From positions 1 through 26,902 of IMG/VR virus record IMGVR_UViG_3300047557_004134: DNA of 26,902 nucleotides. The stretch is one strand, 5' to 3'. Position 1 is the first letter of the stretch. Every line of letters begins with the position of its first letter. Below the pieces are notes generated by a model that was not told the origin of the DNA, made no database searches, and was given only the letters and a program-made list of their open reading frames with translations. Shown in pieces: positions 2,645 to 26,902 of the stretch. Origin of the DNA: a virus. Both the position numbers and the translations under genes were made by a program.

Positions 2645-2896
2645 TTATGTTTTTCTCCTGTATACGGAGAACATCACTGGACTTTTTCTTTTTCTACTGA
2701 CTCCAGGTTCTCCTGATTTGCTTCCTGGAGGTTGTCCTAGGCCAGCCACATTACCTCCACCAGAAGTATTTGTTGGTGCTACGGCGACTGCGCCGTCTTC
2801 TTTTACACAACTTCCTTTGGAATAGGCTTTTTTGCCTGGAGCTGGCCTGTAACCTGGCCAACATCTTTCGTCAAAATATTCCCTAAACTTTTTCAT
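2645..2896 (-). CDS. Small conserved phage protein with capsid-targeting-like N-terminus
   Basis: This 83-aa protein begins MKKFREYFDE, which fits M-x-x-[FY]-x-x-[FY]-hydrophobic-x-E, the layout of the T4 internal-protein capsid-targeting peptide. A CWPGYRPAPGKKAYSKGSC segment (about residues 12-30) with two cysteines follows. After it come an EDGAVAVAPTN stretch, a Gly-rich linker and a basic C-terminus (RKRKSPVMFSVYRRK). From memory, these segments recur in small proteins of marine T4-like phages. The start overlaps the stop of the 128-aa gene as ATGA. The function is unknown; a small basic virion protein is a reasonable guess. Confidence 0.65.
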   Translation of the reverse strand: MKKFREYFDERCWPGYRPAPGKKAYSKGSCVKEDGAVAVAPTNTSGGGNVAGLGQPPGSKSGEPGVSRKRKSPVMFSVYRRKT

Positions 2897-3279
2897 ATTT
2901 TTCTTAATATTTCTGCTACATTGGTATCGATTGGTATATCAGCGGTAAAGATATTTTTTCCTCTGATTCCATAAACAGTATCAGGCATTATATTCAAATA
3001 ACAAAGAAAAGTTTTTAAAATATCATAATCACGTTCATCTGTTCTATAAAACAATATTCTTGCTGTTGCTTCTGTTCCAAAAACATTGTTTAATAAAATG
3101 ATGTGATTTAATATTAAACGCTCTTTCAATAATTTTGTAACTTTATATCTTCTGAATAATCTCTTTAGATATTTTGTTCGTTTAATATCTCCTTCAAATT
3201 CAGACATGATACAATGTGGCGAAGTATATGCTTTCACCGCATACATCATAAAATTATCTTCATTCAAATCATCAAACAT
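2893..3279 (-). CDS. Conserved small phage protein (DUF7207-like), unknown function
   Basis: This is a soluble 128-aa protein opening MFDDLNEDNFMMYAVKAY and containing KRTKYLKRLFRRYK and LILNHIILLNNVFGTEATARILF. I recall this pattern from small proteins next to structural genes in many T4-like marine phages, possibly the family named DUF7207, but I cannot verify the number. It is mainly helical by appearance, with no membrane segment. It is the first gene after a strong terminator (3283-3312), and no clear ribosome site precedes its ATG. Its transcription probably relies on read-through or on a promoter I could not see. Confidence 0.7.
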   Translation of the reverse strand: MFDDLNEDNFMMYAVKAYTSPHCIMSEFEGDIKRTKYLKRLFRRYKVTKLLKERLILNHIILLNNVFGTEATARILFYRTDERDYDILKTFLCYLNIMPDTVYGIRGKNIFTADIPIDTNVAEILRKI

Positions 3280-3282
3280 CTA

Positions 3283-3312
3283 CGAAAAGAGGGGGTGACT
3301 TTCGCCACCCCC
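3283..3312 (-). terminator. Rho-independent terminator after the virion protein gene
   Basis: In minus-strand RNA the sequence is GGGGGUGGC-GAAA-GUCACCCCC followed by UCUUUU. This makes a nine-pair stem with one G-U wobble, closed by a C(GAAA)G tetraloop, and a short U-rich tail. On the plus strand the wobble becomes an A-C mismatch, so the hairpin favours minus-strand transcripts. It begins six bases past the stop of the Ig-like virion protein gene and just before the ATG of the 128-aa gene. Confidence 0.85.
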
Positions 3313-3318
3313 ATCCGA

Positions 3319-4008
3319 TTACATAATTGTAATTGTTGCGTTTGCAGATGTTGCGGAAACGCCTTGGTCTGCGGCAGTAACAACTGCACGGAACACATAT
3401 GCGTTTGCTGCGGCTGTCTTTGGATAGACAAGCAATGTGTCTGTTGTTCCGCCAACATAACCTGTGTTGGTTGGTGTGCTGTTTGCAACATTTGTCCAAC
3501 CAAGAGCACCTGTGTTGCTGTTGACTTGCCACTGATAAGACAGTGTTGCAGATGTATTGCCAACCAGTGCTGGAGATACAGTGAATGTTGCAGAGTTTGC
3601 ATTAGAAGTGTTCGCAACAACTGTAGCGTTAGATGGACCAGTTAGTGTAATTTGAACGTTAGCATAAACTTGTGCGTCACCATCTGGACCTTTCATTTCA
3701 GAAAGTGCGACTAACACTTCTTGCTGAACCCGACCAGCACGACCACCGGAACCAGTTGTTTTTAATACCCAACCTGTGTGTACTGTTCCGTTTCCAGCCA
3801 CATCAGCTTCTTGGCCATCAACACCAAAAAGACCAATTGTTTCACCTGCGGTGTAAACATCGGCGGTTGTGTTTCCATACAAAAGTGCAACATTAGCTGC
3901 GGTTGGTGCTGCAGCTGAAGCCTTTACGCCAGCTGCATTTACAATTGTTGAGTTAACGGCCCAATATGGAGCGTTAGCTGCGTTATCGTTATTTCCCCAA
4001 GATGACAT
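3319..4008 (-). CDS. Virion structural protein with C-terminal Ig-like domain
   Basis: This 229-aa protein is rich in Ala, Thr, Asn, Val and Gly, with few charged residues. The N-terminus MSSWGNNDNAANAPYW resembles a W-G-x-x-D-x-A-x-A-P-x-W opening that I remember from structural proteins of marine T4-like phages. Residues about 115-229 look like one Ig-like beta-sandwich: ATFTVSPAL, SATLSYQWQV, a W in GWTNVAN, then YVFRAVVTA and ATITIM strands. Such domains decorate phage heads, necks or tails and may bind host surface sugars. It has a strong AAGGAG site eight bases before the ATG, a late-promoter-like element and its own terminator, which fit high, separate late expression. Head decoration versus neck or tail location cannot be decided. 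Confidence 0.75.
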   Translation of the reverse strand: MSSWGNNDNAANAPYWAVNSTIVNAAGVKASAAAPTAANVALLYGNTTADVYTAGETIGLFGVDGQEADVAGNGTVHTGWVLKTTGSGGRAGRVQQEVLVALSEMKGPDGDAQVYANVQITLTGPSNATVVANTSNANSATFTVSPALVGNTSATLSYQWQVNSNTGALGWTNVANSTPTNTGYVGGTTDTLLVYPKTAAANAYVFRAVVTAADQGVSATSANATITIM

Positions 4009-4041
4009 TTATATTCTCCTTTTAACCGAAGGTTATGGTGG

Positions 4042-4049
4042 TATTTATT
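4042..4049 (-). promoter_or_regulatory. T4-late-like promoter (AATAAATA, one mismatch)
   Basis: The minus strand reads TAATAAATAC, one base from the TATAAATA late consensus. It overlaps the stop of the 581-aa gene and precedes the virion protein ATG (4008) by about 33 bases. The gene it would drive has an excellent ribosome site and a terminator, so a private late transcription unit is plausible. The mismatch and AT-richness keep this uncertain. Confidence 0.4.
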
Positions 4050-5793
4050 ATTTCTTTAATTGGTCTACTTGACCTGGTCTTAGTCTCATTATCGGATCGA
4101 TTTCAATTGTATCACGCTTTTCACCTGTCATGGTTTTTCCACCAGAAAGAACTGCGGCAGCTTTGATTCCACTACCATCGGCCGATACATTTCCATTCTT
4201 CTGCATTTTTGTTTTTCCATAAGAAGCTACGGATTTATCGTCTTTCTCATGGTCATACAAATCTTCTTTAATACCTTTTTTCTTGTATATAGATTTGATA
4301 ATTCTAGCTGATTTTGTTTTTTCGTTTTTCATTTTAGGTGTAGAATCGGTATCAACTTCCATTCCTACTGTTTGTGTTGCTGCATATGGATCCTGAAATT
4401 TATCTTCTTTTATTTCAGTTTCTTCTTTTGTGGCTCTCCATCCACCACCCTTTGATTTGTACCACTTTGATGCCCATCCATTTGCGTATGCGGAAGGATA
4501 AACATCAAATTTGGAACGAGCCATAGATTTTGCTCTAGCCCAAAGCTTTGGATTTGTTGGACTATTTTTTTCATCCAACTGTTCTTCGCTTATCTTACCT
4601 TTACCGAAATTTGAAACATTAACAGGTTTTCCGCCTTTGCCACTTCTATCAGCAACAGGATCATGTTTGCGTTTTGCAGCAACGGCAGAAGCTCTTTCTT
4701 TTTTACTTAGTTTAGCTCTTTTTTCATTTGACATACACTTTGGCTTTGGTTCACCTGGTTCTCTAGCGCAAGGACCAATTGCTTCACCTTTGCTGTTAAT
4801 TCTTTTCCAACCACCCTCTGGATGTGTTTTACTGAACCATTTGCGTAAATCTTCTTCAACTGATTCAATTTCTTCTTTTATTCTCGCTTTGGATTCTGCA
4901 CTAGCGGCACCCATGTGTCTTTTTGTTGCTTTTCTAAATTTATCTAAAGCAGTTTGCATGGACTTGGCTGAAGTTCTTTTTGATGCTGCATCACCCTGTT
5001 TTGTCAATTTTTCAGCGTCTGCTCTGGCTTTTGTTGCATAACTGGTCAAAGTTGATTTTTGCAATTCATCAAGTTGTTCAACTTCTTCTTTAACTCTAGC
5101 CAAACCTTTTTCTCTGCGTTGTATCATGCGTTTAACAATATCACCATATTCACCTTTTGTGTGTGGCTTTAATTCTTTAACTTGTGCAGTTGCTTTTTCT
5201 TTATAACTATCTTTGGTCTGTTGTGAAACTTCATCAATCTTCAATCTCTTTCTTCTCCAAATTTCAGATCGTTTTTGACCGAGGGTTTGCCATGCTCTTT
5301 TGGCTGGATCTTTTTCCATTTGTTCAATCATCAAATCTGTAATTTCAAGTTCTTCTTTTAATTTTACAACAAAATCATAATCGTCCATGGTTAATACTCC
5401 TTTATTTCTTATAGAGATTAACTTCTGAACAACTTTGTGTAATTCCATATCCGTTTTTGCATCTTCTCTAGCAAATTCTAATAAACGAATTAGAAAAGGA
5501 ATATCTAACATCACTCTATCAGCTTTATCAACTTCTTCTTTCATTCCACGAACAGAATCATCAATATGTGATTGCAACCAATTTTTGAATTGACTGGTTT
5601 TAGAGTGAGCCACTTTCATATCTTTGGTTGCATATTTTGGATTTATACCTCTAGAAGAAAGATATCTGTCCAGTAAAGCAGTTTCATTAATGTTGGATTT
5701 AACAGACCAAGGATCTCTAGGATCAGTTCCAAATTTCGGTGTCATATCAACCGTTTTTTTCACTATTGATTTGATCAATTTTGATTTGTCCAT
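4048..5793 (-). CDS. Multi-module basic phage protein with EEVEQLDE repeats
   Basis: This protein has 581 aa, strongly charged. Visible modules: an N-terminal region (1-80) with DPRDPWS and LLDRYLSSRGINPK; a helical region to about 180; two related repeats, IDEVSQQTKDSYKEKA (186-201) and EEVEQLDELQKSTLTSYATK (236-255); a GGWKRINSKGEAIGPCA segment with two cysteines (327-353); and EEQLDEKN (403-410). A KFDVYPSAYANGWASKWYK block (428-446) followed by GGGW resembles modules of phages and algal viruses, possibly DUF5872. I recognise no enzyme. The repeat is shared with the 320-aa gene. AAGG lies six bases before the ATG and overlaps the stop of the upstream -1 frame extension. An internal head or scaffold-associated role is inferred. 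Confidence 0.75.
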   Translation of the reverse strand: MDKSKLIKSIVKKTVDMTPKFGTDPRDPWSVKSNINETALLDRYLSSRGINPKYATKDMKVAHSKTSQFKNWLQSHIDDSVRGMKEEVDKADRVMLDIPFLIRLLEFAREDAKTDMELHKVVQKLISIRNKGVLTMDDYDFVVKLKEELEITDLMIEQMEKDPAKRAWQTLGQKRSEIWRRKRLKIDEVSQQTKDSYKEKATAQVKELKPHTKGEYGDIVKRMIQRREKGLARVKEEVEQLDELQKSTLTSYATKARADAEKLTKQGDAASKRTSAKSMQTALDKFRKATKRHMGAASAESKARIKEEIESVEEDLRKWFSKTHPEGGWKRINSKGEAIGPCAREPGEPKPKCMSNEKRAKLSKKERASAVAAKRKHDPVADRSGKGGKPVNVSNFGKGKISEEQLDEKNSPTNPKLWARAKSMARSKFDVYPSAYANGWASKWYKSKGGGWRATKEETEIKEDKFQDPYAATQTVGMEVDTDSTPKMKNEKTKSARIIKSIYKKKGIKEDLYDHEKDDKSVASYGKTKMQKNGNVSADGSGIKAAAVLSGGKTMTGEKRDTIEIDPIMRLRPGQVDQLKK

Positions 5794-5801
5794 TTTTTAC
5801 C

Positions 5802-5942
5802 TTAATTCGAAATTTTTCCCAACATTTCGTTTTTTATTCTTTTCATTGAGTTTTTGGCCAGTTGTTTAACATGTTTCATTGGTTTTGTTTCATTTGTAAT
5901 AAATGGAACAACATCACTTTCTGGCCTTTTTGCCTCATTTAC
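5802..5942 (-). CDS. Out-of-frame C-terminal extension of the EF-hand/repeat protein
   Basis: Between the stop at 5939 and the next ATG at 5793, the -1 frame is open for 46 codons. It reads VNEAKRPESDVVPFITNE then TKPMKHVKQLAKNSMK then RIKNEMLGKISN and stops at 5802. The sequence looks protein-like, and from memory MKxxxxLAKxSMxRIKxEMLGK motifs recur at C-termini of marine T4-like phage proteins. The -1 frame has a stop shortly upstream and no start with a ribosome site; the first in-frame ATG, 5879, has none. It is therefore best explained as the tail of the preceding protein, reached by frameshifting or by a one-base error in the A10 run. Confidence 0.6.
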   Translation of the reverse strand, partial: VNEAKRPESDVVPFITNETKPMKHVKQLAKNSMKRIKNEMLGKISN

Positions 5943-6901
5943 TTTTTTTTTTCTTCGTTCTTTGCTGATTTGGTCGCTGTTGCATACATCACTGATTTAG
6001 CTCTCTCACCATAACGAGCTTTAAAACCAGCAAGATTCTTTTTCATACCTTTTACGATACGCTCTTTTTCAGCAGTCTCACCTTTGGTTAGAGTGCGTTC
6101 ATCAACCTGTTCAATTTCTTCTTTTGTTAATCGTTCAACTGCTTTGCCGATGCCTGCGTGACGCTTTTGAGCAACGGCATTAAATCTGTCAGATAGTCTA
6201 GATGACGCTGCTTTTGCGCTAGGTTTTCTAGATTTTTCTGCCTTATTCTTAAAGTCGGCTCCAAGTGAACGAGAAGCACCAACATCTCTTGCTGCACTTT
6301 TCACATAAGAACCCAGTGTTGATTTTGACAATTCATCAATCTGCTCAACTTCTTCTGGAAGTTTAGGTTTTTTGGCATGAATGGATTTGTCATGTGGATA
6401 GAATGGGTTTTTGCCTATTCTATCTTTAATTTTATCTTTAAGAATATCTTGTGTTACTTTTTTGGTCGTTGGCTGACTTAGGAGTCTATGTCTTTCTCTT
6501 GTCTGAGCAGAGGGTTCGTCCAAAAAATCACCTTGACCTGCTTCATCAACCTGTTCAACTTCTTCTTTTTTCATTGGCTCATCTTTAACAGGTTTTCTGT
6601 TATAAACAGTTCCTGTTGAAATTTTCTTAGAATCAAATCCGGCCTTTTCACCTGGTTTAGTAGGTAATTGACTTTTATAGTTTTTAAGATCGAATGGATT
6701 GTTATGTGATGTTTCGTCAACTTTTTCAACTTCTTCTTTTTTAACTTCTGGCTTTTCACCACGAAGAATCTTGAAATCGTGAGCATCAATCTTGTTGTTC
6801 TTGTTTTTATCGATTTTGTGTTGGTCGCCTTTTAAAGCTTCTTGTTGAAGAACATTTTTGATGGTGTCGGCAACTGCATCAAATTTTTTTATATTAATCA
6901 T
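5939..6901 (-). CDS. EF-hand-like, repeat-rich phage protein with RYGERAKSVMYATATK motif
   Basis: This is a 320-aa Lys/Glu-rich protein. Residues 31-42, DKNKNNKIDAHD, match an EF-hand calcium loop, with acidic or Asn ligands at positions 1, 3, 5, 9 and 12 and Ile at 8; the Gly usual at 6 is Asn. Four acidic motifs follow: KEEVEKVDE (55-63), KEEVEQVDE (112-120), PEEVEQIDELSKSTLGSY (182-199) and KEEIEQVDE (260-268). The C-terminus has MKKNLAGFKARYGERAK then SVMYATATKSAK, a motif I recall from many marine phage proteins. The annotated end is NEEKKK on an A10 run, and a 46-codon -1 extension follows. GAGG lies six bases before the ATG. The function is unknown; an internal virion protein is the working guess. 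Confidence 0.75.
   Translation of the reverse strand: MINIKKFDAVADTIKNVLQQEALKGDQHKIDKNKNNKIDAHDFKILRGEKPEVKKEEVEKVDETSHNNPFDLKNYKSQLPTKPGEKAGFDSKKISTGTVYNRKPVKDEPMKKEEVEQVDEAGQGDFLDEPSAQTRERHRLLSQPTTKKVTQDILKDKIKDRIGKNPFYPHDKSIHAKKPKLPEEVEQIDELSKSTLGSYVKSAARDVGASRSLGADFKNKAEKSRKPSAKAASSRLSDRFNAVAQKRHAGIGKAVERLTKEEIEQVDERTLTKGETAEKERIVKGMKKNLAGFKARYGERAKSVMYATATKSAKNEEKKK
5942..5952 (-). other. Candidate -1 ribosomal frameshift site (A10-G)
   Basis: The gene ends GAA GAA AAA AAA AAG TAA. It contains A-AAA-AAG, the heptamer used for -1 frameshifting in E. coli dnaX, immediately before the stop codon. Slipping back one base reads GTA AAT GAG and joins the 46-codon extension. I saw no strong downstream hairpin (only a weak GGC/GCC stem) and no strong internal Shine-Dalgarno. 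A sequencing or assembly error in the homopolymer (A11) would give the same joined product. Confidence 0.5.
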
Positions 6902-6928
6902 TTTTTCCTCGCTTTTTGGTGAAACTGT

Positions 6929-7603
6929 TTAACAATTCCATTTTCTTAGTGATTTGTTTATTCTAGAATTTGGATCTCTTGCTGTTTTTGCTGAAGTTAA
7001 TTTAGCCTTCATGCCACTCATTCTTCTACAAAAGCTCAGTCTGCGTTTTGCTGCTTTTGAACCTTTTTTTAATTTACTTGGCTTAGTTGTAACTGCCATA
7101 GACAATTTTGAACCAGGATTTGCTCTACGATATGATGCAATGCCCTTACGATTTAATCCACCTGATGCAGATTTGCCTTCTTTTCGTTGCCATGCAGGGG
7201 AGGCTTCGTCCAATTCAACTTCTTCTTTTTTCATCGGTTCATTTTTAACGGGTTCATTTTTAACGGGTTCACTTGTTTTTTTCCAAGTATAAGGACGATC
7301 ACCCGGTTCAAATCCTCTTTTTTTCATTTGTTCTCTTGCTTTGGCAGCTCTAACATAATCGAAACCTGACCTCATGGCTTCGGAAATATCATCTTCTTCT
7401 TTGAGGTTGTTTGCAGCCGATACAAAAGCTTTACCTTTAGCTTCTGCTGCACCACCCTGAGAACCTTGCATCTTTTCTCTATCAGCCTGATCTTGATATT
7501 CTTTAGCTTTATCCAACAGATGTTTTTTCTGTCTCTTTATTTCTGCTGCATCCATTCTATTGGTTTCAGCAGTAGACTCTAGAAATTGTTTGAATTTTTT
7601 CAT
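6929..7603 (-). CDS. Basic phage protein, DUF6321-like C-terminal domain, capsid-targeting-like N-terminus
   Basis: This 224-aa protein begins MKKFKQFLES, close to the M-x-x-F-x-x-F-[LI]-x-E peptide. A charged helical region follows. Next come two perfect EPVKN pentapeptides plus EPMKKEEVELDEA (112-134), a repeat shared with the 320-aa neighbour. From 135 the sequence SPAWQRKEGKSASGGLN, SYRRANPGSK, RRLSFCRRMSGMKAKLTSAK and DPNSRIN...LRKWNC is very basic. I recognise it from memory as the DUF6321-type domain of phages and algal viruses. A DNA-binding internal head protein would fit, but this is inference. The ATG overlaps the previous stop as ATGA; only a weak AAGAAG ribosome site is visible. 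Confidence 0.78.
   Translation of the reverse strand: MKKFKQFLESTAETNRMDAAEIKRQKKHLLDKAKEYQDQADREKMQGSQGGAAEAKGKAFVSAANNLKEEDDISEAMRSGFDYVRAAKAREQMKKRGFEPGDRPYTWKKTSEPVKNEPVKNEPMKKEEVELDEASPAWQRKEGKSASGGLNRKGIASYRRANPGSKLSMAVTTKPSKLKKGSKAAKRRLSFCRRMSGMKAKLTSAKTARDPNSRINKSLRKWNC
7236..7270. repeat. 15-bp tandem repeat, 2.3 copies
   Basis: The unit GGTTCATTTTTAACG occurs twice in perfect tandem (7236-7250, 7251-7265), followed by GGTTC. On the minus strand it encodes EPVKN-EPVKN-EP in the linker of the 224-aa protein. A similar single copy (KPVKDEP) occurs in the 320-aa protein. The size keeps frame and suggests slippage or unequal recombination in a linker. Confidence 0.9.
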
Positions 7604-9399
7604 TTTTTCTTCTTCTTTTTTGAAATTTCAACTGTTGGTATTAATTTATCCTTCACATTTTCTAGAGGTTCTTTATTTGAAGAACCACTCAAAACTCCAG
7701 CTAAACCCATTGATGAACTGCTTGGATCATTATAATCTTCTCTAAAAGTTCTAAAAGACCTGAATTCTTTTTGTTCACGATAAGTAACATCACCTAATCC
7801 AGACATAGGATAAACTGTTCCTTGTTGTCTAGTGTCAAATTCTGGACCTATACCTGCCAAATTCCTAAGTCTCTGACTTACTGTTGGCATGTCAACTTTG
7901 CCTTTTCTTTTTATTTTTTCTTTGTCTTTGCTGAAGTTTGTTTCTTTTGGCTGTGGTTGGACTTTGTACGTGGCTTGGTCTTCTTCACTATAGGTTCTGA
8001 AGATGTAACTACCTCTTCTTTTTGGGGCGTCCCATCTGATATCATCGGTGTTGGGGTCACTGGCTCGGTTGTCTGGGGTGTTGTCGGCTGGACCTGGGGC
8101 TGTTCGACTTGAGCTGTTCTTTGTGTAAAGTCCAGTGGATGTTTCTCGCTTGAGTTTGTACCTTTCAACCAATCTAGAATTCGTTTTAACATTTTCATTT
8201 TCCTTCACTGTTATGATTTTATTTTCATTTCCTTTGAACCACAGGTATGCGGATTCGTTAAAATTTTGAGTCTCAATAAATGTATTTATTTTTTGATAGG
8301 TGTCAGTAATTTGTTCTTCTAGCTCATCAAAATTGCCATTATTGTTGAAATGTACAAAATTGGAAAAATTGTTGCGATAATGTGATTTGTATTTTTGTGA
8401 TTGCATCCATTTTTCTTGACGAATTGATTCTGATACCATCTTCGTCAACTTCATGTTTCTTTCTTTGCTTGTTTCGTTTGATGTATCAACGAACACCATC
8501 ATCGTTTCATATCCAAGTTCTTCTAATTCTTCTTTTATGTGTACCATTTTTTCAGCCAAATCAGCTGGTCCATTAATAATCAATGGCATTCTATTTTTGA
8601 TAGAATCTCTACGATAGTCATTTGTTTTTTCAGCCAAAGTCATTTTATCTTGCAGATATTCATAAATTTGGGTAACATTCAGTTCAACTGCTTTGTTTTC
8701 AGAGATAGCTTCTCTCAGAATAATATCTTTACCAGAACCTGGCCCACCAGTTACAAATATGGCTTTAAACATACCACGCGAATAGTTTTCATTTATTCCC
8801 ATACCCTTTCTAACATCACGAAATAGTTCTCTGGCATGGTTTTCTGAAACATGTTTCGGCACACCTTGTTTGAAAGAAACAAAATCATTATTTTTTGCAT
8901 GTTCTCTCATTTTTGAGGCTGACATACCCTCAACACTGTCAGAATCGGGATCTCTTTGACCGGCAGATTTAACTTCAATCTTTTTAAAATTGTATAGTGA
9001 ACCAGAAGATGTTCCGTTGTATTGTTTCAATTTTTGTTCATATTCTGGAACACGGTCTGAACCAGCAACCATAATTAAATGATCATGGCCAATTGCATTG
9101 AGTGCTGCAGCATGTTGTAGGAATGTTGGTTTTTCTTTGTTTGATGAAATTATATTGGTGTTTGGAAAAAATCTTTTTGCATGTTTTAGTTTATCTTTGA
9201 CCATCAGAGGATTCTTTTTTGAATCGACGGAATGTGAAACGACAATAACGTGCGGCGCATGATAATCTTTTGCGATTTCTTTCACTCTGTTGACCAATTT
9301 TTCATGACCCGTTGTTACAGGGTTCATTCTACCAAAAGCCATAACGACAGGTTTTTCTGTCTTGGATTGATCTTGTAATCTTTTCAGAAACGAGTCCAT
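7600..9399 (-). CDS. Nucleotidylyltransferase-P-loop kinase fusion with long tail
   Basis: The protein has 599 aa. Residues 17-200 form a HIGH-superfamily nucleotidylyltransferase: AFGRMNPVTTGH (21-32) carries the (T/H)xGH site and SASKMR (160-165) matches the ISSTxxR-like motif, as in NMN adenylyltransferase and cytidylyltransferases. Residues 210-370 hold a P-loop domain with Walker A GGPGSGKD (218-225), probably a nucleotide or small-molecule kinase. This order resembles NadR (adenylyltransferase plus ribosylnicotinamide kinase), but the substrate is unknown. The remaining 220 residues are polar and unassigned, ending in a Lys run. A second same-strand reading frame overlaps the tail (7911-8192). 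The stop overlaps the next ATG as ATGA, next to an A-AAA-AAG heptamer. The start directly abuts the upstream stop. Confidence 0.85.
   Translation of the reverse strand: MDSFLKRLQDQSKTEKPVVMAFGRMNPVTTGHEKLVNRVKEIAKDYHAPHVIVVSHSVDSKKNPLMVKDKLKHAKRFFPNTNIISSNKEKPTFLQHAAALNAIGHDHLIMVAGSDRVPEYEQKLKQYNGTSSGSLYNFKKIEVKSAGQRDPDSDSVEGMSASKMREHAKNNDFVSFKQGVPKHVSENHARELFRDVRKGMGINENYSRGMFKAIFVTGGPGSGKDIILREAISENKAVELNVTQIYEYLQDKMTLAEKTNDYRRDSIKNRMPLIINGPADLAEKMVHIKEELEELGYETMMVFVDTSNETSKERNMKLTKMVSESIRQEKWMQSQKYKSHYRNNFSNFVHFNNNGNFDELEEQITDTYQKINTFIETQNFNESAYLWFKGNENKIITVKENENVKTNSRLVERYKLKRETSTGLYTKNSSSRTAPGPADNTPDNRASDPNTDDIRWDAPKRRGSYIFRTYSEEDQATYKVQPQPKETNFSKDKEKIKRKGKVDMPTVSQRLRNLAGIGPEFDTRQQGTVYPMSGLGDVTYREQKEFRSFRTFREDYNDPSSSSMGLAGVLSGSSNKEPLENVKDKLIPTVEISKKKKKK
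7911..8192 (-). CDS. Candidate overlapping gene inside the tail of the 599-aa gene
   Basis: A second same-strand frame encodes about 93 aa: an amphipathic start (MLKRILDWLKG), a Pro/Thr/Gln-rich middle, and a Lys-rich end (QTSAKTKKK). The ATG at 8192 has AAGGA about eight bases upstream; the ATG at 8198 is too close to it. The stretch around 8040-8115 is richer in G+C than its surroundings, which could reflect coding in two frames. Both frames look protein-like. I cannot tell whether this one is translated; it may be a chance open frame opposite a low-complexity linker. Confidence 0.35.
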   Translation of the reverse strand: MLKRILDWLKGTNSSEKHPLDFTQRTAQVEQPQVQPTTPQTTEPVTPTPMISDGTPQKEEVVTSSEPIVKKTKPRTKSNHSQKKQTSAKTKKK

Positions 9400-10371
9400 T
9401 TAATCTTTGTGTCCTATTGATTTTTTAAAAGCAAATAAATGCTCATCATTATCTAAATCGACATGGCTTTTATTTAAACCTTTTTTGCCGTCTGGGTGAA
9501 AAGCAACGGTTCTTGCTAATTTATTTCCTTTTTGTTTTTCACGAATTCTCCACATGCCTTTTCCACTTATTCTTGGAAGTCCATGGCCGGTAGCATCGGT
9601 TTTACCAACACTGTATGTTCCATGGCCGCCGACCTGTACTACGTGAACGTGATGATCTTGTAAGTATGCTTCCGCCGGACTTAAATCTGGATGTTTAATT
9701 TCAATAGTTTTTGCTCGACCAGAAGAAGTTGTTTCAGTTTTTTCTGGATCAGGAAAATGTTTGTTCATGTGTTCAATTATGCCAGATTTTTCAATTTGTT
9801 TTGCGTATAACGGACGTTTTTCTCTAGCTTTATCACCAATGTGCCAGCCTTTTCCTTTTGCAAAATGTATCGTCAATTGTCCCATTGCGGCTGTTACGCC
9901 ATCCTTAGTTTCACCATTTAATAGATTTCCATCAACTGTGGCAGGATGAAAGATATTTTTCTTTTTATTTTCAATTGCAAAATCTGTTCCTGCCGTGGAA
10001 CCCGCACCAGATAAATGTGATGGCATAATATTGTGTAATTTCATTCTTTCCACAAATCTAGTTTCATAATCATGGCCTTTGTTTTTTGGTGTTTCGCCTG
10101 GTTTGTATAGCTTTGATATTGGAATAACGTGCTCATTTCCGACTTTATCTTCAGCTTTAACGTGATATTTACCATTAATTTGAGAAACTGATTTCAGTTT
10201 AACTTGTGAACCAGCCGGCAGTTCTTCATGTTCCAATGCTAGTGTATGTGTGTGTTCCTTTGCACCAATATATGGCGTTACGTATTTTTTAACATGGTCT
10301 TCACCAGCTGAACCAGAAGCTGTCATTTTTCCGCGGCCTTCAATCAAAAAACTCTTAAATGATAAAGTCAT
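9400..10371 (-). CDS. Predicted PD-(D/E)XK nuclease with capsid-targeting-like N-terminus
   Basis: This 323-aa protein starts MTLSFKSFLIEG, which (with one extra residue) fits the capsid-targeting-like peptide. The core shows GHDYETRFVERM (99-110), GAGSTAGTDFAI (122-133) with D130, then LNGETKDGVTAAMGQ (151-165) with E154-T-K156 and Q165. A helix Glu, a motif Asp, an E-x-K and a following Gln are the expected order of a PD-(D/E)XK nuclease active site. An N-terminal segment (about 45-95) looks like a small beta domain. DNA cleavage is predicted from these residues only. It stands between a ligase-like and a nucleotidylyltransferase gene. AAGGA is about nine bases before the ATG; one base separates it from the preceding stop. 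Confidence 0.6.
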   Translation of the reverse strand: MTLSFKSFLIEGRGKMTASGSAGEDHVKKYVTPYIGAKEHTHTLALEHEELPAGSQVKLKSVSQINGKYHVKAEDKVGNEHVIPISKLYKPGETPKNKGHDYETRFVERMKLHNIMPSHLSGAGSTAGTDFAIENKKKNIFHPATVDGNLLNGETKDGVTAAMGQLTIHFAKGKGWHIGDKAREKRPLYAKQIEKSGIIEHMNKHFPDPEKTETTSSGRAKTIEIKHPDLSPAEAYLQDHHVHVVQVGGHGTYSVGKTDATGHGLPRISGKGMWRIREKQKGNKLARTVAFHPDGKKGLNKSHVDLDNDEHLFAFKKSIGHKD

Positions 10372-10372
10372 T

Positions 10373-11575
10373 TTATATGTTCCTTATGCCTGCAAAATTT
10401 CTACGAGAGAATTCAGCACGATTGACAAATTTGTCCGTATCATTGTTGTGATGGAATACATATCCTTCGGGGTTAGCATCTTCACCTGCATGTTTGTGTT
10501 GAAAGTCTTGTTGTTGATTCATCACACCAATTAAAACATTTTTAGCGTCTTGCAAATGTTTATGTAATTTGAAAAGATTGTTATAGTGTTTTTTATTTCT
10601 TTCTATTTTACTTAACTCATTTGATAAAGTCAACTGTTTGGCTTCTTTATTTTTTTCAACTTTTAATTTTTCTATATCTTTACTAGCTTTATTTTCAATC
10701 CATTTCTTAAAATTTTCATGATTAGGTTCTTCACCGGATCTCACCGTGTGATTCATATACGATTCTAAGTGTTTACCAACTCCTTGGTGATCTCTTGTTC
10801 CAGGATACATGTCTGTTCCATGTGTGTCGTGTACACTTTTTGCCAGTGTTATATGTTTGTTGAATTCTTTCTTTTCTTTTGAACCAAAGTGTACTTTACT
10901 GGTGTCCATTCTAGGATCAACTGAATAAACATCTGGATGTTGTTTGAACTTTTCGTGATTTACTTCATGTGAAGCGCTCAGACTAGAAGCATCTTCACCA
11001 TGATAGGAGAGATGTGTAACAACACCAATTTTTGCTTTTTTGACTTTATTCGATTCTTCACCGTGAGCCGTGTAGGTTAGTCCAGAAGGATTAGGACGAA
11101 ATGAATGACCGCCATCTTTTTCCTTAACTTTGTCACCTTTAGCTGTGCCGAACATCATATCACCTTGATAAACACCCTCTTTTGGTGAAATTTTTGGCAA
11201 ATGAACAAGTGCGTCTTTTAGTTTACTAACTAATCCAGGTGCATGGCCATGATTTTTTACTATGTCTTCTGGAGTATAGTTGATTTTTGGTGTTTTGTTA
11301 AAAGCTGATTTCGAGGCAACAAAAAATTTACCATTTTTGGGATGGTGTCCATAAACTATTGCCGGCGAACCATCATACTTTGTTGTTAACTCAGAGGTCT
11401 TTTTTCCTTTTGAAATGTGATCCGCGGCTCCCATCAAAGAATTAATTGCGTGGTCAAATCCGGACTCACCTGTCTGCAATGGACGATCTTCAACGTGAGT
11501 CAAATGCTTAATTTGACGGCTTGCACCTTCTTCTGGATCAATTTGTTCTTTTAGGAAACTTTTGAAAGTTAACAT
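10373..11575 (-). CDS. KxDG nucleotidyltransferase (ligase-fold)-like protein, DUF6267-like
   Basis: The ATG at 11575 is chosen over a GTG at 11596 because AGAGG lies five bases upstream; this gives 400 aa. It opens MLTFKSFLKEQ, an exact fit to the capsid-targeting-like pattern. TTKYDGSPAIVYG has K66-x-D-G69, the lysine nucleotidylation motif of DNA/RNA ligases and capping enzymes. YQGDMMFG (136-143) sits where motif III would be, and NPEGYVF (368-374) resembles motif IV (EGxV). Motif V (KxK) is not clear. Lys/His-rich helices (285-365) separate the last two. From memory it resembles a phage family labelled DUF6267. Ligase-fold membership is a strong hint; the substrate is unknown. A late promoter precedes it. 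Confidence 0.65.
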   Translation of the reverse strand: MLTFKSFLKEQIDPEEGASRQIKHLTHVEDRPLQTGESGFDHAINSLMGAADHISKGKKTSELTTKYDGSPAIVYGHHPKNGKFFVASKSAFNKTPKINYTPEDIVKNHGHAPGLVSKLKDALVHLPKISPKEGVYQGDMMFGTAKGDKVKEKDGGHSFRPNPSGLTYTAHGEESNKVKKAKIGVVTHLSYHGEDASSLSASHEVNHEKFKQHPDVYSVDPRMDTSKVHFGSKEKKEFNKHITLAKSVHDTHGTDMYPGTRDHQGVGKHLESYMNHTVRSGEEPNHENFKKWIENKASKDIEKLKVEKNKEAKQLTLSNELSKIERNKKHYNNLFKLHKHLQDAKNVLIGVMNQQQDFQHKHAGEDANPEGYVFHHNNDTDKFVNRAEFSRRNFAGIRNI

Positions 11576-11616: not shown

Positions 11617-11624
11617 TATTTATA
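11617..11624 (-). promoter_or_regulatory. T4-late-like promoter (TATAAATA)
   Basis: An exact TATAAATA on the minus strand lies in the short gap between the 225-aa gene (stop 11642) and the KxDG protein gene (ATG 11575). Its position at the boundary of the sugar block and the internal-protein block, with a leader of about 35 bases before a good AGAGG site, supports it as the promoter of the late block. Confidence 0.65.
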
Positions 11625-18861: not shown

Positions 18862-18869
18862 TATTTATC
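18862..18869 (-). promoter_or_regulatory. T4-late-like promoter (GATAAATA, one mismatch)
   Basis: The minus strand carries GATAAATA at the end of the DruA-like gene, followed after a 22-base gap by the ATG of the 430-aa gene. It differs from the late consensus at the first base. It is the only promoter-like element near the switch from replication genes to the sugar block. Confidence 0.35.
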
Positions 18870-19974
18870 TTATAATTTGAATCTCTTTACCTGAGGTCCA
18901 AACTTCTAATTCATTACGTAACCTGTTTTCCACTTTCAATGTTTCATAACGATTGATAGCTTTATTTCTCCACCATTCAATTAAGTTTGACATGTGGTGT
19001 TTATCATAGTTTTCACCAGGAATCAGAGTATCTGTTTTGCAATTGATATAATCGTTCGTGTTTTTATAACCATAATCACTAATGTAATATCTTTTCTGTT
19101 CGGTCAAATTCTTAGCCTTTTCAATTACATCACTAAAACTTGCCAAAGCATTTTTGTCGGACTTCAATGCACTTTTAGTCAGTGCAATAATTTTCATAGT
19201 AGTTTTAAGTTTCTTGCTCGAAGCGTCAGGTTCTACAATTTCTCCAACTCTTTGTTCGACAAAGTTTCTTAAATCTTCATAAACTTTTCCGTGCATCAAA
19301 GGAACAAAATCAGAATCAGTTAAACCTTTATAACGAATATAAGGTTTCATACCATCATATTGAGATACTGTTTTCGAACTGCCATATAAACTGGTAGTTT
19401 CAAAAAGGCACAAATTCATGCCATATTTTTTATTAATGATTTCTTTTACTTCATGTGATGTACATATAGCAGCCAGCAATTTACCACCAAGATAATTGTA
19501 TCCAAAAGGTTGTGTTGGAACAATTACAAAACCCATCATTGCAGAATGATTGAAGCGTGTTGCCCACTCTGGTTTTTGTGTAAAAACTTGGCCAAGCATT
19601 TCATTTCTTGGTTTCATATTAATAACTGGTGATCCAAGACGTATAAAACCAACAAATTTTTTTGTGTTTTTTTCTTGAACAGCTAGACGAATTTGTCGGC
19701 CGACAGGAGCAACATTTATATGTGATGATGTAATGTTGAGAAGTGTTTCCCAAGTAGATTGTGGAGGTTCAAACACTTCGAAGTCCATTTCTTTTGGATG
19801 AATTGAAAAATCTTGAAACAGATCATCATCCAAACTAATTAATGGATTAGTTGGCAATTCAGCCAATGAGGCCAATTTTTGATCCCGCATGTAGTCATCT
19901 ATGCGATTAAAATTACCAAAATAATTTTCAAATACTTTTGCACAGTGTAGTGCATCATCAAACGATAGATTCAT
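18865..19974 (-). CDS. DruA/DUF4338-like protein
   Basis: The start at 19974 (369 aa) is preferred over a 36-codon longer frame because it leaves only a 17-base overlap with the cupin gene and has a purine-rich GAGAAAG before it. Visible blocks are KFVGFIRLGSPVINMKPR, then FNHSAMMGFVIVPTQPFGYN, then YLGGKLLAAICTSHEVKEII, then LCLFETTSLYGSSKTVSQYD. From memory these match the DUF4338 group that includes DruA of the Druantia anti-phage system, whose biochemical function is not clear. A phage copy beside replication genes may act in competition between phages, or have an ordinary DNA role. The match is by eye only. Confidence 0.55.
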   Translation of the reverse strand: MNLSFDDALHCAKVFENYFGNFNRIDDYMRDQKLASLAELPTNPLISLDDDLFQDFSIHPKEMDFEVFEPPQSTWETLLNITSSHINVAPVGRQIRLAVQEKNTKKFVGFIRLGSPVINMKPRNEMLGQVFTQKPEWATRFNHSAMMGFVIVPTQPFGYNYLGGKLLAAICTSHEVKEIINKKYGMNLCLFETTSLYGSSKTVSQYDGMKPYIRYKGLTDSDFVPLMHGKVYEDLRNFVEQRVGEIVEPDASSKKLKTTMKIIALTKSALKSDKNALASFSDVIEKAKNLTEQKRYYISDYGYKNTNDYINCKTDTLIPGENYDKHHMSNLIEWWRNKAINRYETLKVENRLRNELEVWTSGKEIQIIR

Positions 19975-20419
19975 TCTTTCTCTTTTCGATATATTTTTCC
20001 CATTGTATCCACTTATTATTAACAAGAAATCCCCACTCTCTTTGTTGTGGACCTGGCATAAACAATGTCCAACAGTCCACATTGGGATTAATTTCTATTC
20101 TATGATACGATGTAGCACTACAAACTCTGAAATGACCAGGACCTCTCCAGTGTCGAATTTCACCTATCTTTTCACCTAGAGAATTGAACTGTGGTACCCA
20201 TTCATAATAACCACCTTTGAGAATCAGTGTGGCATATGGCCATGGATGATCGTGAACATCATCTGGATCCGATTTTAAAAATTTGTGTAGAAACACATTG
20301 AATGGAAACCACTTACGATCTTTCAAAAAAAGGTAATATCTTTCCAAATATGGTTCATTTGATTCTCGGTCCATTACGATTCGTTTACGACCAATTTTAT
20401 CAAGAAATTTTAATATCAT
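19958..20419 (-). CDS. Cupin-like metal-binding protein
   Basis: This 153-aa protein has a core of DDVHDHPWPYATLILKGGYY (53-72) with H56-D-H58, then HFRVCSATSYHRIE (96-109) with H106. This is the H-x-H ... H arrangement of the cupin beta-barrel metal site, although the usual motif-1 Glu is not obvious; E73 is the nearest. MPGPQQREWGFL follows. From memory, such HDHPW proteins are common in T4-like cyanophages, without a tested function. The start overlaps the helicase stop as ATGA and the end overlaps the next gene, so it is co-translated with replication genes. An enzymatic or binding role on a small molecule is possible. Confidence 0.7.
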   Translation of the reverse strand: MILKFLDKIGRKRIVMDRESNEPYLERYYLFLKDRKWFPFNVFLHKFLKSDPDDVHDHPWPYATLILKGGYYEWVPQFNSLGEKIGEIRHWRGPGHFRVCSATSYHRIEINPNVDCWTLFMPGPQQREWGFLVNNKWIQWEKYIEKRKNESIV

Positions 20420-26124: not shown

Positions 26125-26902
26125 ATGATTAAAAAGTTCACCGCAGCGGTGCTTTTTGTCATGTCTTTATCATCTGTTGCACAAACAGTTTATGATTCGA
26201 GCACACTGGTAGATACGAATAGTACATCAACATCTACAAGTACCGTAAACACCAATAATACCAGCACTGCAACCACAACGAACACTAACAACACAAATGT
26301 GAATAGTGTTTCCACAAATGTCAATACGAGCACCAGTGTAAACACAAATAACAATGTGAACACCGGTACTATGACGTATAACAACAATAATGTCAACACC
26401 AGCACATCATCGAGCACATCTACCACAGTTAATACAAATAACAATGTGAACAGCGGTACGATGAACAACAACAATAACAATGTTAATACAAGCACCAGTA
26501 CAAACGTAAACACAAATAACAATGTGAACAGCGGTACGATGACCAACAATAATAACAATGTTAACACAAATACTAGTGCATCAACAAGCACAAATACAAA
26601 TAACAATGTCAACTCTGGTGACATGACAAATAGAAACATCAATACTTCAGATGTAACACAAAGAATAATTCAACCACCACCAACCGCTGTTGCACCAACA
26701 ATGATGAGTGGCGGTAATAATGATTTGTGTACCACTGGATCCAGCAGTGCAGTTCAAACACAAATTTTTGGTATTTCTACAGGCACAACCGTTCGTGATG
26801 AAAATTGCGAAAGATTAAAATTGTCTAAAACTCTTTATGATATGGGTATGAAAGTGGCTGCTGTTGCTACCATGTGTCAAGACCGCAGAGTTTGGGATGC
26901 AA
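26125..26902 (+). CDS. Secreted Asn/Thr/Ser-repeat protein, 3' end cut by window
   Basis: This is the only plus-strand gene, open from ATG 26125 to the window end (259 codons). AAAAGGG lies about seven bases before it. The N-terminus MIKKFTAAVLFVMSLSSVAQ is a Sec signal peptide with a likely cut after SVA. Residues about 25-175 are almost only Asn, Thr, Ser, Val and Gly, with four imperfect repeats of 26-30 residues built on TNNNVNSGTM. A Pro-rich hinge (QPPPTAVAPTM) leads to NDLCTTGSSSAVQTQIFG, then RDENCERLKLSKTLYDMG and MKVAAVATMCQDRRVW, a Cys-containing domain I recall from secreted proteins of marine phages. It is probably exported to the periplasm or surface; the role is unknown. Confidence 0.75.
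   Translation, partial: MIKKFTAAVLFVMSLSSVAQTVYDSSTLVDTNSTSTSTSTVNTNNTSTATTTNTNNTNVNSVSTNVNTSTSVNTNNNVNTGTMTYNNNNVNTSTSSSTSTTVNTNNNVNSGTMNNNNNNVNTSTSTNVNTNNNVNSGTMTNNNNNVNTNTSASTSTNTNNNVNSGDMTNRNINTSDVTQRIIQPPPTAVAPTMMSGGNNDLCTTGSSSAVQTQIFGISTGTTVRDENCERLKLSKTLYDMGMKVAAVATMCQDRRVWDA
26344..26614 (+). repeat. Imperfect in-frame tandem repeats in the secreted protein
   Basis: The sequence ACAAATAACAATGT recurs at 26344, 26434, 26512 and 26596, spaced by 90, 78 and 84 bases, so every unit keeps the reading frame. Units encode TNNNVN(T/S)G(T/D)M followed by an Asn run and a Ser/Thr run of varying length. The variation suggests ongoing slippage or recombination. Confidence 0.85.

Follow-up and report, generated by a model that had tools for sequence, protein, structure and literature searches.

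Why should otherwise unrelated phage proteins, predicted enzymes among them, start with the same ten or so residues? The question is raised by a 26,902-nucleotide viral fragment (IMG/VR record IMGVR_UViG_3300047557_004134; about 27 kb and 32 genes, referred to as the window), in which a KxDG protein, a nuclease-like protein, a DUF6321 protein and an 83-amino-acid protein begin with variants of one short leader (Table 1). The window phage is aquatic and T4-like, with a gp43 that shares about 50% identity with the polymerases of cyanophages; the head genes lie outside the reach of the fragment. We propose, with a probability of roughly 0.87, that this common start is a T4-type capsid-targeting sequence, through which cargo would be loaded into the prohead, cut by gp21 and injected.

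The four leaders follow the register of the T4 signal

In T4, mutants of IPIII assign leader positions 4 and 7 to targeting and positions 8 and 10 to processing; an aspartate at position 10 blocks processing and leaves targeting unaffected (PMC9026906). The initial annotation of the window had singled out four N-termini, and all four lie where it placed them. Three fit a strict pattern, ^M.{1,3}[FYW]..[FYW][LIVMF].E, which matches 3 of the 32 window genes (starts at 11575, 10371 and 2896) against 0.013 expected from shuffled proteins, so that chance was rejected. The fourth, described as less exact, retains F4, F7 and L8 and has its glutamate at position 9. Aromatic residues with the 4/7 spacing of the targeting positions are present in all four leaders, shifted by one in the nuclease-like protein. 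The processing positions are occupied by LKE at 8-10 in the KxDG protein and by LIE at 9-11 in the nuclease-like protein, while the combination of L/I at 8 and E at 10 is missing from the proteins starting at 2896 (FDE) and 7603 (LES). Since orthologues of the 7603 protein, reading MKKFTEFVKESTPET..., carry the canonical E10, the window copy is judged to have lost one residue, and its processing by a gp21-type protease is doubtful. The 2896 leader has F at position 8 instead of the L or I of its orthologues (MKNFKDFLNE, MKTFQEYITE), which makes processing of this protein less certain. By analogy with T4, targeting of both could persist despite the deviating processing positions. A narrow MKKF DNA pattern gave no match in the window's own record.

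Applied to T4, the strict pattern is specific, matching only ipII, ipIII and 61.1, and not sensitive, because IPI and Alt are missed. The product of 61.1 (54 amino acids, function unassigned; NC_000866, complement of 18966-19130, locus L117) starts with a perfect leader, MKTFKEFIKE, a peptide that is also found on a different protein in contig L073. On this sequence, T4 gp61.1 is a candidate for an overlooked internal head protein.

The leader is conserved at gene starts, ahead of unrelated modules

The comparison set comprised viral contigs with relatives of the KxDG and nuclease-like proteins (87 loci, 972 kb), whose genes were called by a simple longest-open-reading-frame method, so that gene counts are approximate. 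Carrying the peptide search beyond the window revealed an enrichment at gene starts (the initial annotation had expected one at the N-termini of late genes): the strict pattern stands at the start of 138 out of 1,214 predicted genes and at 12 out of 6,326 internal methionines (Fisher test, p about 1e-96 with and 4e-35 without the KxDG family; the loci are partly redundant and the p values therefore overstate independence). After redundancy was collapsed, the KxDG genes were represented by 52 distinct 5' ends and the modular proteins by 30 distinct 20-mers. Of the 85 KxDG homologues whose 5' end is complete, 82 match at the chosen start; taking a later in-frame ATG adds two or three others, from L010, L080 and L081. 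Next to the invariant F4 and E10 of the 52 distinct ends, position 7 is F or Y and position 8 is L or I; positions 2, 3, 5, 6 and 9 vary. The fixed positions coincide with those mapped in T4 IPIII.

The leader is found on the KxDG family (including the homologues of C48C1, MLDFKNFITE, and Melnitz-2, INFSKYITE), on modular basic proteins, on the nuclease family, where it mostly reads FKSFLLTE or FLITE with (L/I)-x-E shifted by one extra residue, and on a family of 167 amino acids with no assigned function (MKTYKHFIVE). The modules that follow it include DLRKWF, KGRCWTGYKP, VKKPTGDLKKACW, STQATVDQDSAELKRQK and SAAWQRK/DUF6321. Peptides of the MKTFQEFINE type are nearly equal to the T4 leader MKTYQEFIAE, and the modules behind them differ. 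The leader is thus carried by non-homologous proteins, as had been claimed.

Directly after the leader, different cargoes seem to have another module in common, some 35 residues long and approximating LGL-x-x-x-GHGxYxDPxTxx(V/I)xxTxxGxL. The proteins that would share it are the S-SM1 cytidylyltransferase, the S-SCSM1 NMNAT, the S-CREM2 kinase and Cas9-like protein, and S-CRM01 gp128 (sites at L009 1256-2419, L002 7704-12846, L123 28820-30001 and L122 17422-17973).

Tagged genes form a block with a late promoter

A T4-type late promoter element, TATAAATA, lies upstream of the KxDG gene. Of 45 distinct upstream regions, 36 contain this octamer, beginning 48-57 nucleotides ahead of the start codon of the KxDG gene, against an expectation of 0.006 per 80 nucleotides, and the tagged operon is predicted to be expressed late, behind this conserved promoter. 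In two near-complete relatives, G001 and G002, strict matches are confined to one block of about 9 kb that has gp41 on one side and the lysis genes on the other and is headed by the KxDG gene. Equal frequency on early proteins, which the initial annotation regarded as contrary to its proposal, is not what these genomes display: their replication and early genes contain no strict match. Both encode gp21, gp22 and gp23, and L-N-E stands in their gp23 where the propeptide probably ends, judged by position only.

Tagged proteins are found in virions of cultured relatives

For cyanophages S-CREM2, S-SM1 and S-SCSM1, we relied on published lists or record annotations to tell which proteins belong to the virion. 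When the published S-CREM2 list (PMC10665884) was mapped onto the genome, the motif in T4 register was found in 4 of 52 virion proteins and in none of the 167 others (p 0.003); without the restriction to this register the counts are 4 of 52 and 1 of 167, respectively. The tagged virion proteins are a SAM lyase (MKDFDSFLEE), a kinase (MKRFDAFLTE), a cytidylyltransferase (MKNFSSFLTE) and gp136 (MQTFSMFFSE). Variants of the leader occur on the virion proteins gp13 (MKDLHSFLTE) and Cas9-like gp12, with RFASFMAE at about residue 18. The sole match in S-SM1 is the cytidylyltransferase, named a virion protein by its authors (PMC3037559), and the virion NMNAT of S-SCSM1 starts MKSFLQFLKE. Pooling the three phages gives 6 tagged proteins among 141 virion proteins versus 2 among 593 others (p 0.0009, with approximate totals of coding sequences). 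For the S-CRM01 kinase, virion status follows a statement in PMC10665884. The KxDG and nuclease-like proteins themselves are not reported in any accessible virion proteome.

In S-SCSM1, the virion-detected protein SSCSM1_93 (L124 3627-3836; 69 amino acids) ends in ...KKRTFKEFLEYIE, a leader-like sequence at the C-terminus.

Predicted activities of the cargo

The KxDG family has K66, D68, G69, Q137, D139, E370 and G371 as invariant residues. These include KxDG as motif I and EG as motif IV, taken as marks of the covalent nucleotidyltransferase (RNA/DNA ligase) superfamily. The top 50 structural matches of the KxDG model (predicted local distance difference test score, pLDDT, 86) are all nucleic-acid ligases, the best being Naegleria RNA ligase (Z 8.6, root-mean-square deviation [rmsd] 3.7, 188 residues aligned); these were obtained with a second structural aligner, Foldseek itself returning no match with E under 0.001 for this model. 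Motifs and modelled fold together place the protein in the ligase superfamily. Residues 1-22 have pLDDT values under 50, and the very low confidence of the KxDG and nuclease leaders in the models is as expected of a disordered tail.

The nuclease-like protein has D130, E154, K156 and Q165 invariant in 22 homologues. Its model (pLDDT 79) matches HhaI in the same second aligner over residues 97-318 (Z 9.5, rmsd 4.2, 181 aligned; 6.9 for the next match). By the D...ExK residues and the modelled fold it classes as a PD-(D/E)XK nuclease, with activity predicted. Foldseek found no significant match for the model and tblastn none in annotated phages. A sequence search of solved structures yielded no convincing relative of either the KxDG or the nuclease-like protein, and PADLOC no defence match for these two or for the cytidylyltransferase.

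The cytidylyltransferase/NMNAT-like protein of the window has a degenerate leader, MDSFLKRLQD. The full leader is present on its homologues in S-SM1, Syn9, S-CREM2, S-SCSM1 and S-CRM01, and those of S-SM1, S-CREM2 and S-SCSM1 are virion-detected.

The modular proteins are built of mostly basic segments separated by linkers that mostly end in (L/I/V)-x-E and so resemble gp21 sites. In 94 modular proteins there are 59 instances of the linker pattern EE[VIL][ED]x[LIVM][DE]E, compared with none after shuffling and a single one in 160,000 residues of other proteins. S-CREM2 gp160, whose modules are similar, was detected in virions by mass spectrometry, and S-SCSM1_89 (EEVENVDE) and S-SCSM1_92 (EEVELDE) are virion proteins. 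The linkers may be cut by gp21. Near its N-terminus (residues 22-46, HKIDKNKNNKIDAHDFKILR) the 5939-6901 polyprotein has a segment, conserved in relatives, that resembles a calcium loop of the EF-hand or dockerin type.

Table 1. Positions of the leaders, their carriers and associated elements in the window
Feature	Position	Strand	Remarks
T4-type late promoter element TATAAATA	11617..11624	-	41 nucleotides upstream of the first tagged gene (KxDG)
KxDG protein	10373..11575	-	DUF6267, 400 aa (amino acids); Pfam E 9e-93; RNA-ligase-fold nucleotidyltransferase-like
KxDG leader MLTFKSFLKE	11546..11575	-	F4 and E10 in all 52 distinct 5' ends
PD-(D/E)XK nuclease-like protein	9400..10371	-	323 aa; HhaI-like C-terminal fold, SH3-like N-terminal part
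Nuclease-like protein leader MTLSFKSFLIE	10339..10371	-	E11 invariant, F5 nearly invariant in homologues
Cytidylyltransferase/NMNAT-like protein	7600..9399	-	P-loop kinase-like part; degenerate leader
DUF6321 modular basic protein	6929..7603	-	C-terminal module of net charge +24
DUF6321 protein leader MKKFKQFLES	7574-7603	-	F4, F7 and L8 kept, E at 9
Modular polyprotein	5939..6901	-	Four EE[VI]Ex[IV]DE linkers
Linker EEVEKVDE	6713..6736	-	Candidate gp21-type site
Linker EEVEQVDE	6542..6565	-	
Linker EEVEQIDE	6332..6355	-	
Linker EEIEQVDE	6098..6121	-	
Modular polyprotein	4048..5793	-	581 aa; basic modules, net +37
Linker EEVEQLDE	5065..5088	-	
Linker EEIESVEE	4852..4875	-	
83-aa basic protein	2645..2896	-	CWPGY module
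83-aa protein leader MKKFREYFDE	2867-2896	-	Strict pattern match

Elsewhere in the window, the gene at 18865-20082 has a DruA-like (DUF4338) match (PADLOC E 6e-10), and its 5' end overlaps the same-strand gene at 19958-20419. A plus-strand reading frame at 26125-26901, open at the window end, encodes low-complexity N/T/S/V repeats (NTSTSTNVNTNNNVNSGTM).

Discussion

The initial annotation had taken the shared start for a common sorting signal. This view gains support from the correspondence with positions mapped in T4, the non-homologous carriers, the late promoter and the tagged virion proteins of relatives. Several observations weigh against it. The processing positions deviate in two of the four window leaders (2896 and 7603); a tagged S-SCSM1 protein of 106 amino acids (MKTFKQFMSE) and S-CREM2 gp30, a looser match, were not detected in virions; and the virion support comes from the proteomes of relatives. 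Purified particles may contain contaminants, and the S-CREM2 authors left the choice between cargo and contaminant open (PMC10665884). Finally, the leader is missing from the KxDG homologues in S-SM1, Syn9 and S-CRM01; packaging is therefore not universal for the KxDG family.

Other explanations can be envisaged. The leader might be a docking peptide for another late structure, such as the membrane, portal or tail, rather than for the prohead core. Detection in virions does not place a protein within the particle, and T4 proheads assemble on the membrane before their release (PMC9026906). However, the leader positions match those of the T4 head signal, the (L/I)-x-E end fits gp21, a protease acting on prohead proteins, and the motif is absent from those S-CREM2 virion proteins that are known to belong to the tail and baseplate, so we consider such a role improbable. 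The absence of the motif from the structural tail genes of S-CREM2 also led us to reject a general late-gene signal. Slightly less credit still is given to the idea that the leaders are relics of ancestry, left on enzymes by duplication and recombination of a packaged protein and no longer functional there: the module shuffling visible behind the leader and the drift of two window leaders at processing positions would agree with it, but the KxDG and nuclease leaders are strongly constrained, the former being kept even in homologues that are only about 30-40% identical. A translation-friendly (A/T-rich, Lys-rich) start or a coincidence of composition, suggested by the MK that begins many leaders, is very hard to reconcile with the data, because the codons of F4 and E10 vary synonymously (TTC/TTT and GAA/GAG) while the residues themselves do not change, the motif is missing from early and replication genes within the same genomes, and shuffled proteins hardly ever match.

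Under the capsid-targeting interpretation, the tagged genes would be expressed from the late operon headed by the TATAAATA promoter. Aromatic residues 4 and 7 of the leader would bind the scaffold core (gp22 and its partners) of the assembling prohead, and the attached protein would be carried inside. The head protease gp21 would then cut after (L/I)-x-E, setting the cargo free among the DNA, and the freed cargo would enter the host together with the genome. This cargo would consist of the RNA-ligase-fold protein, the HhaI-like nuclease, probably the NMNAT/kinase, and the basic modular proteins, which gp21 may cut at the EEVEQ[ILV]DE linkers into DNA-binding peptides. We infer core binding, cleavage, injection and every host function of the cargo by analogy with T4. 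Since the tag is found on enzymes and tagged proteins of relatives are found in purified particles, these phages are likely to bring finished enzymes with them when they deliver their DNA.

The leader resembles that of T4 IPII and IPIII (MKTYQEFIAE, processed by gp21) in length, in register (aromatic residues at 4 and 7, L/I at 8, E at 10) and in being attached to otherwise unrelated proteins, and gp21, gp22 and gp23 are conserved in close relatives. It differs in that the cargo here comprises ligase-fold, nuclease-like and NMNAT/kinase proteins and modular polyproteins, whereas that of T4 consists of small anti-restriction proteins, and in that several leaders here have a shifted or relaxed processing site. 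Cyanophages S-CREM2, S-SM1, S-SCSM1 and S-CRM01 carry NMNAT/cytidylyltransferase, kinase, SAM lyase and other proteins with the same leader; the papers describing them propose no mechanism of packaging and allow for contamination, whereas a leader-based mechanism is proposed here. The polyvalent early-phase effectors (PMC5512222) are likewise phage proteins of several domains for which packaging and injection are assumed, and their genes lie near late genes. Those proteins have fused metallopeptidases, in contrast to the removable ten-residue leader and predicted gp21-type linkers proposed here. In phiKZ and SPN3US, head and ejection proteins also have N-terminal propeptides cut after glutamate, but these mostly exceed 100 residues and end in A-x-E or S-x-E, as opposed to ten residues and L/I-x-E. 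In the literature searched, which covered few subscription papers, capsid targeting and cyanophages came together only in a T4 review, and DUF6267 was not mentioned, although prior notice elsewhere is possible.

More speculatively, the head might be preloaded with a nucleic-acid and nicotinamide adenine dinucleotide (NAD) toolkit acting at DNA entry, with gp21-cut basic peptides helping to pack the genome. Its members would be the ligase-fold protein, the HhaI-like nuclease and the NMNAT-kinase, joined in relatives by the SAM lyase, the protein kinase and the Cas9-like protein. If this tentative idea were true, the toolkit could, for example, repair cleaved tRNA or restore NAD ahead of phage gene expression.

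Enzymes (NMNAT, kinase, SAM hydrolase, Cas9-like protein) turn up again and again in the virion proteomes of cyanophages, and the authors of these studies could not assign them to cargo or contamination. A short leader would settle this question and would allow cargo to be predicted from sequence alone across abundant aquatic phages, uncultured ones included. The enzymes so delivered would act ahead of phage gene expression, a point of relevance to the way these phages cope with the defences of the host.

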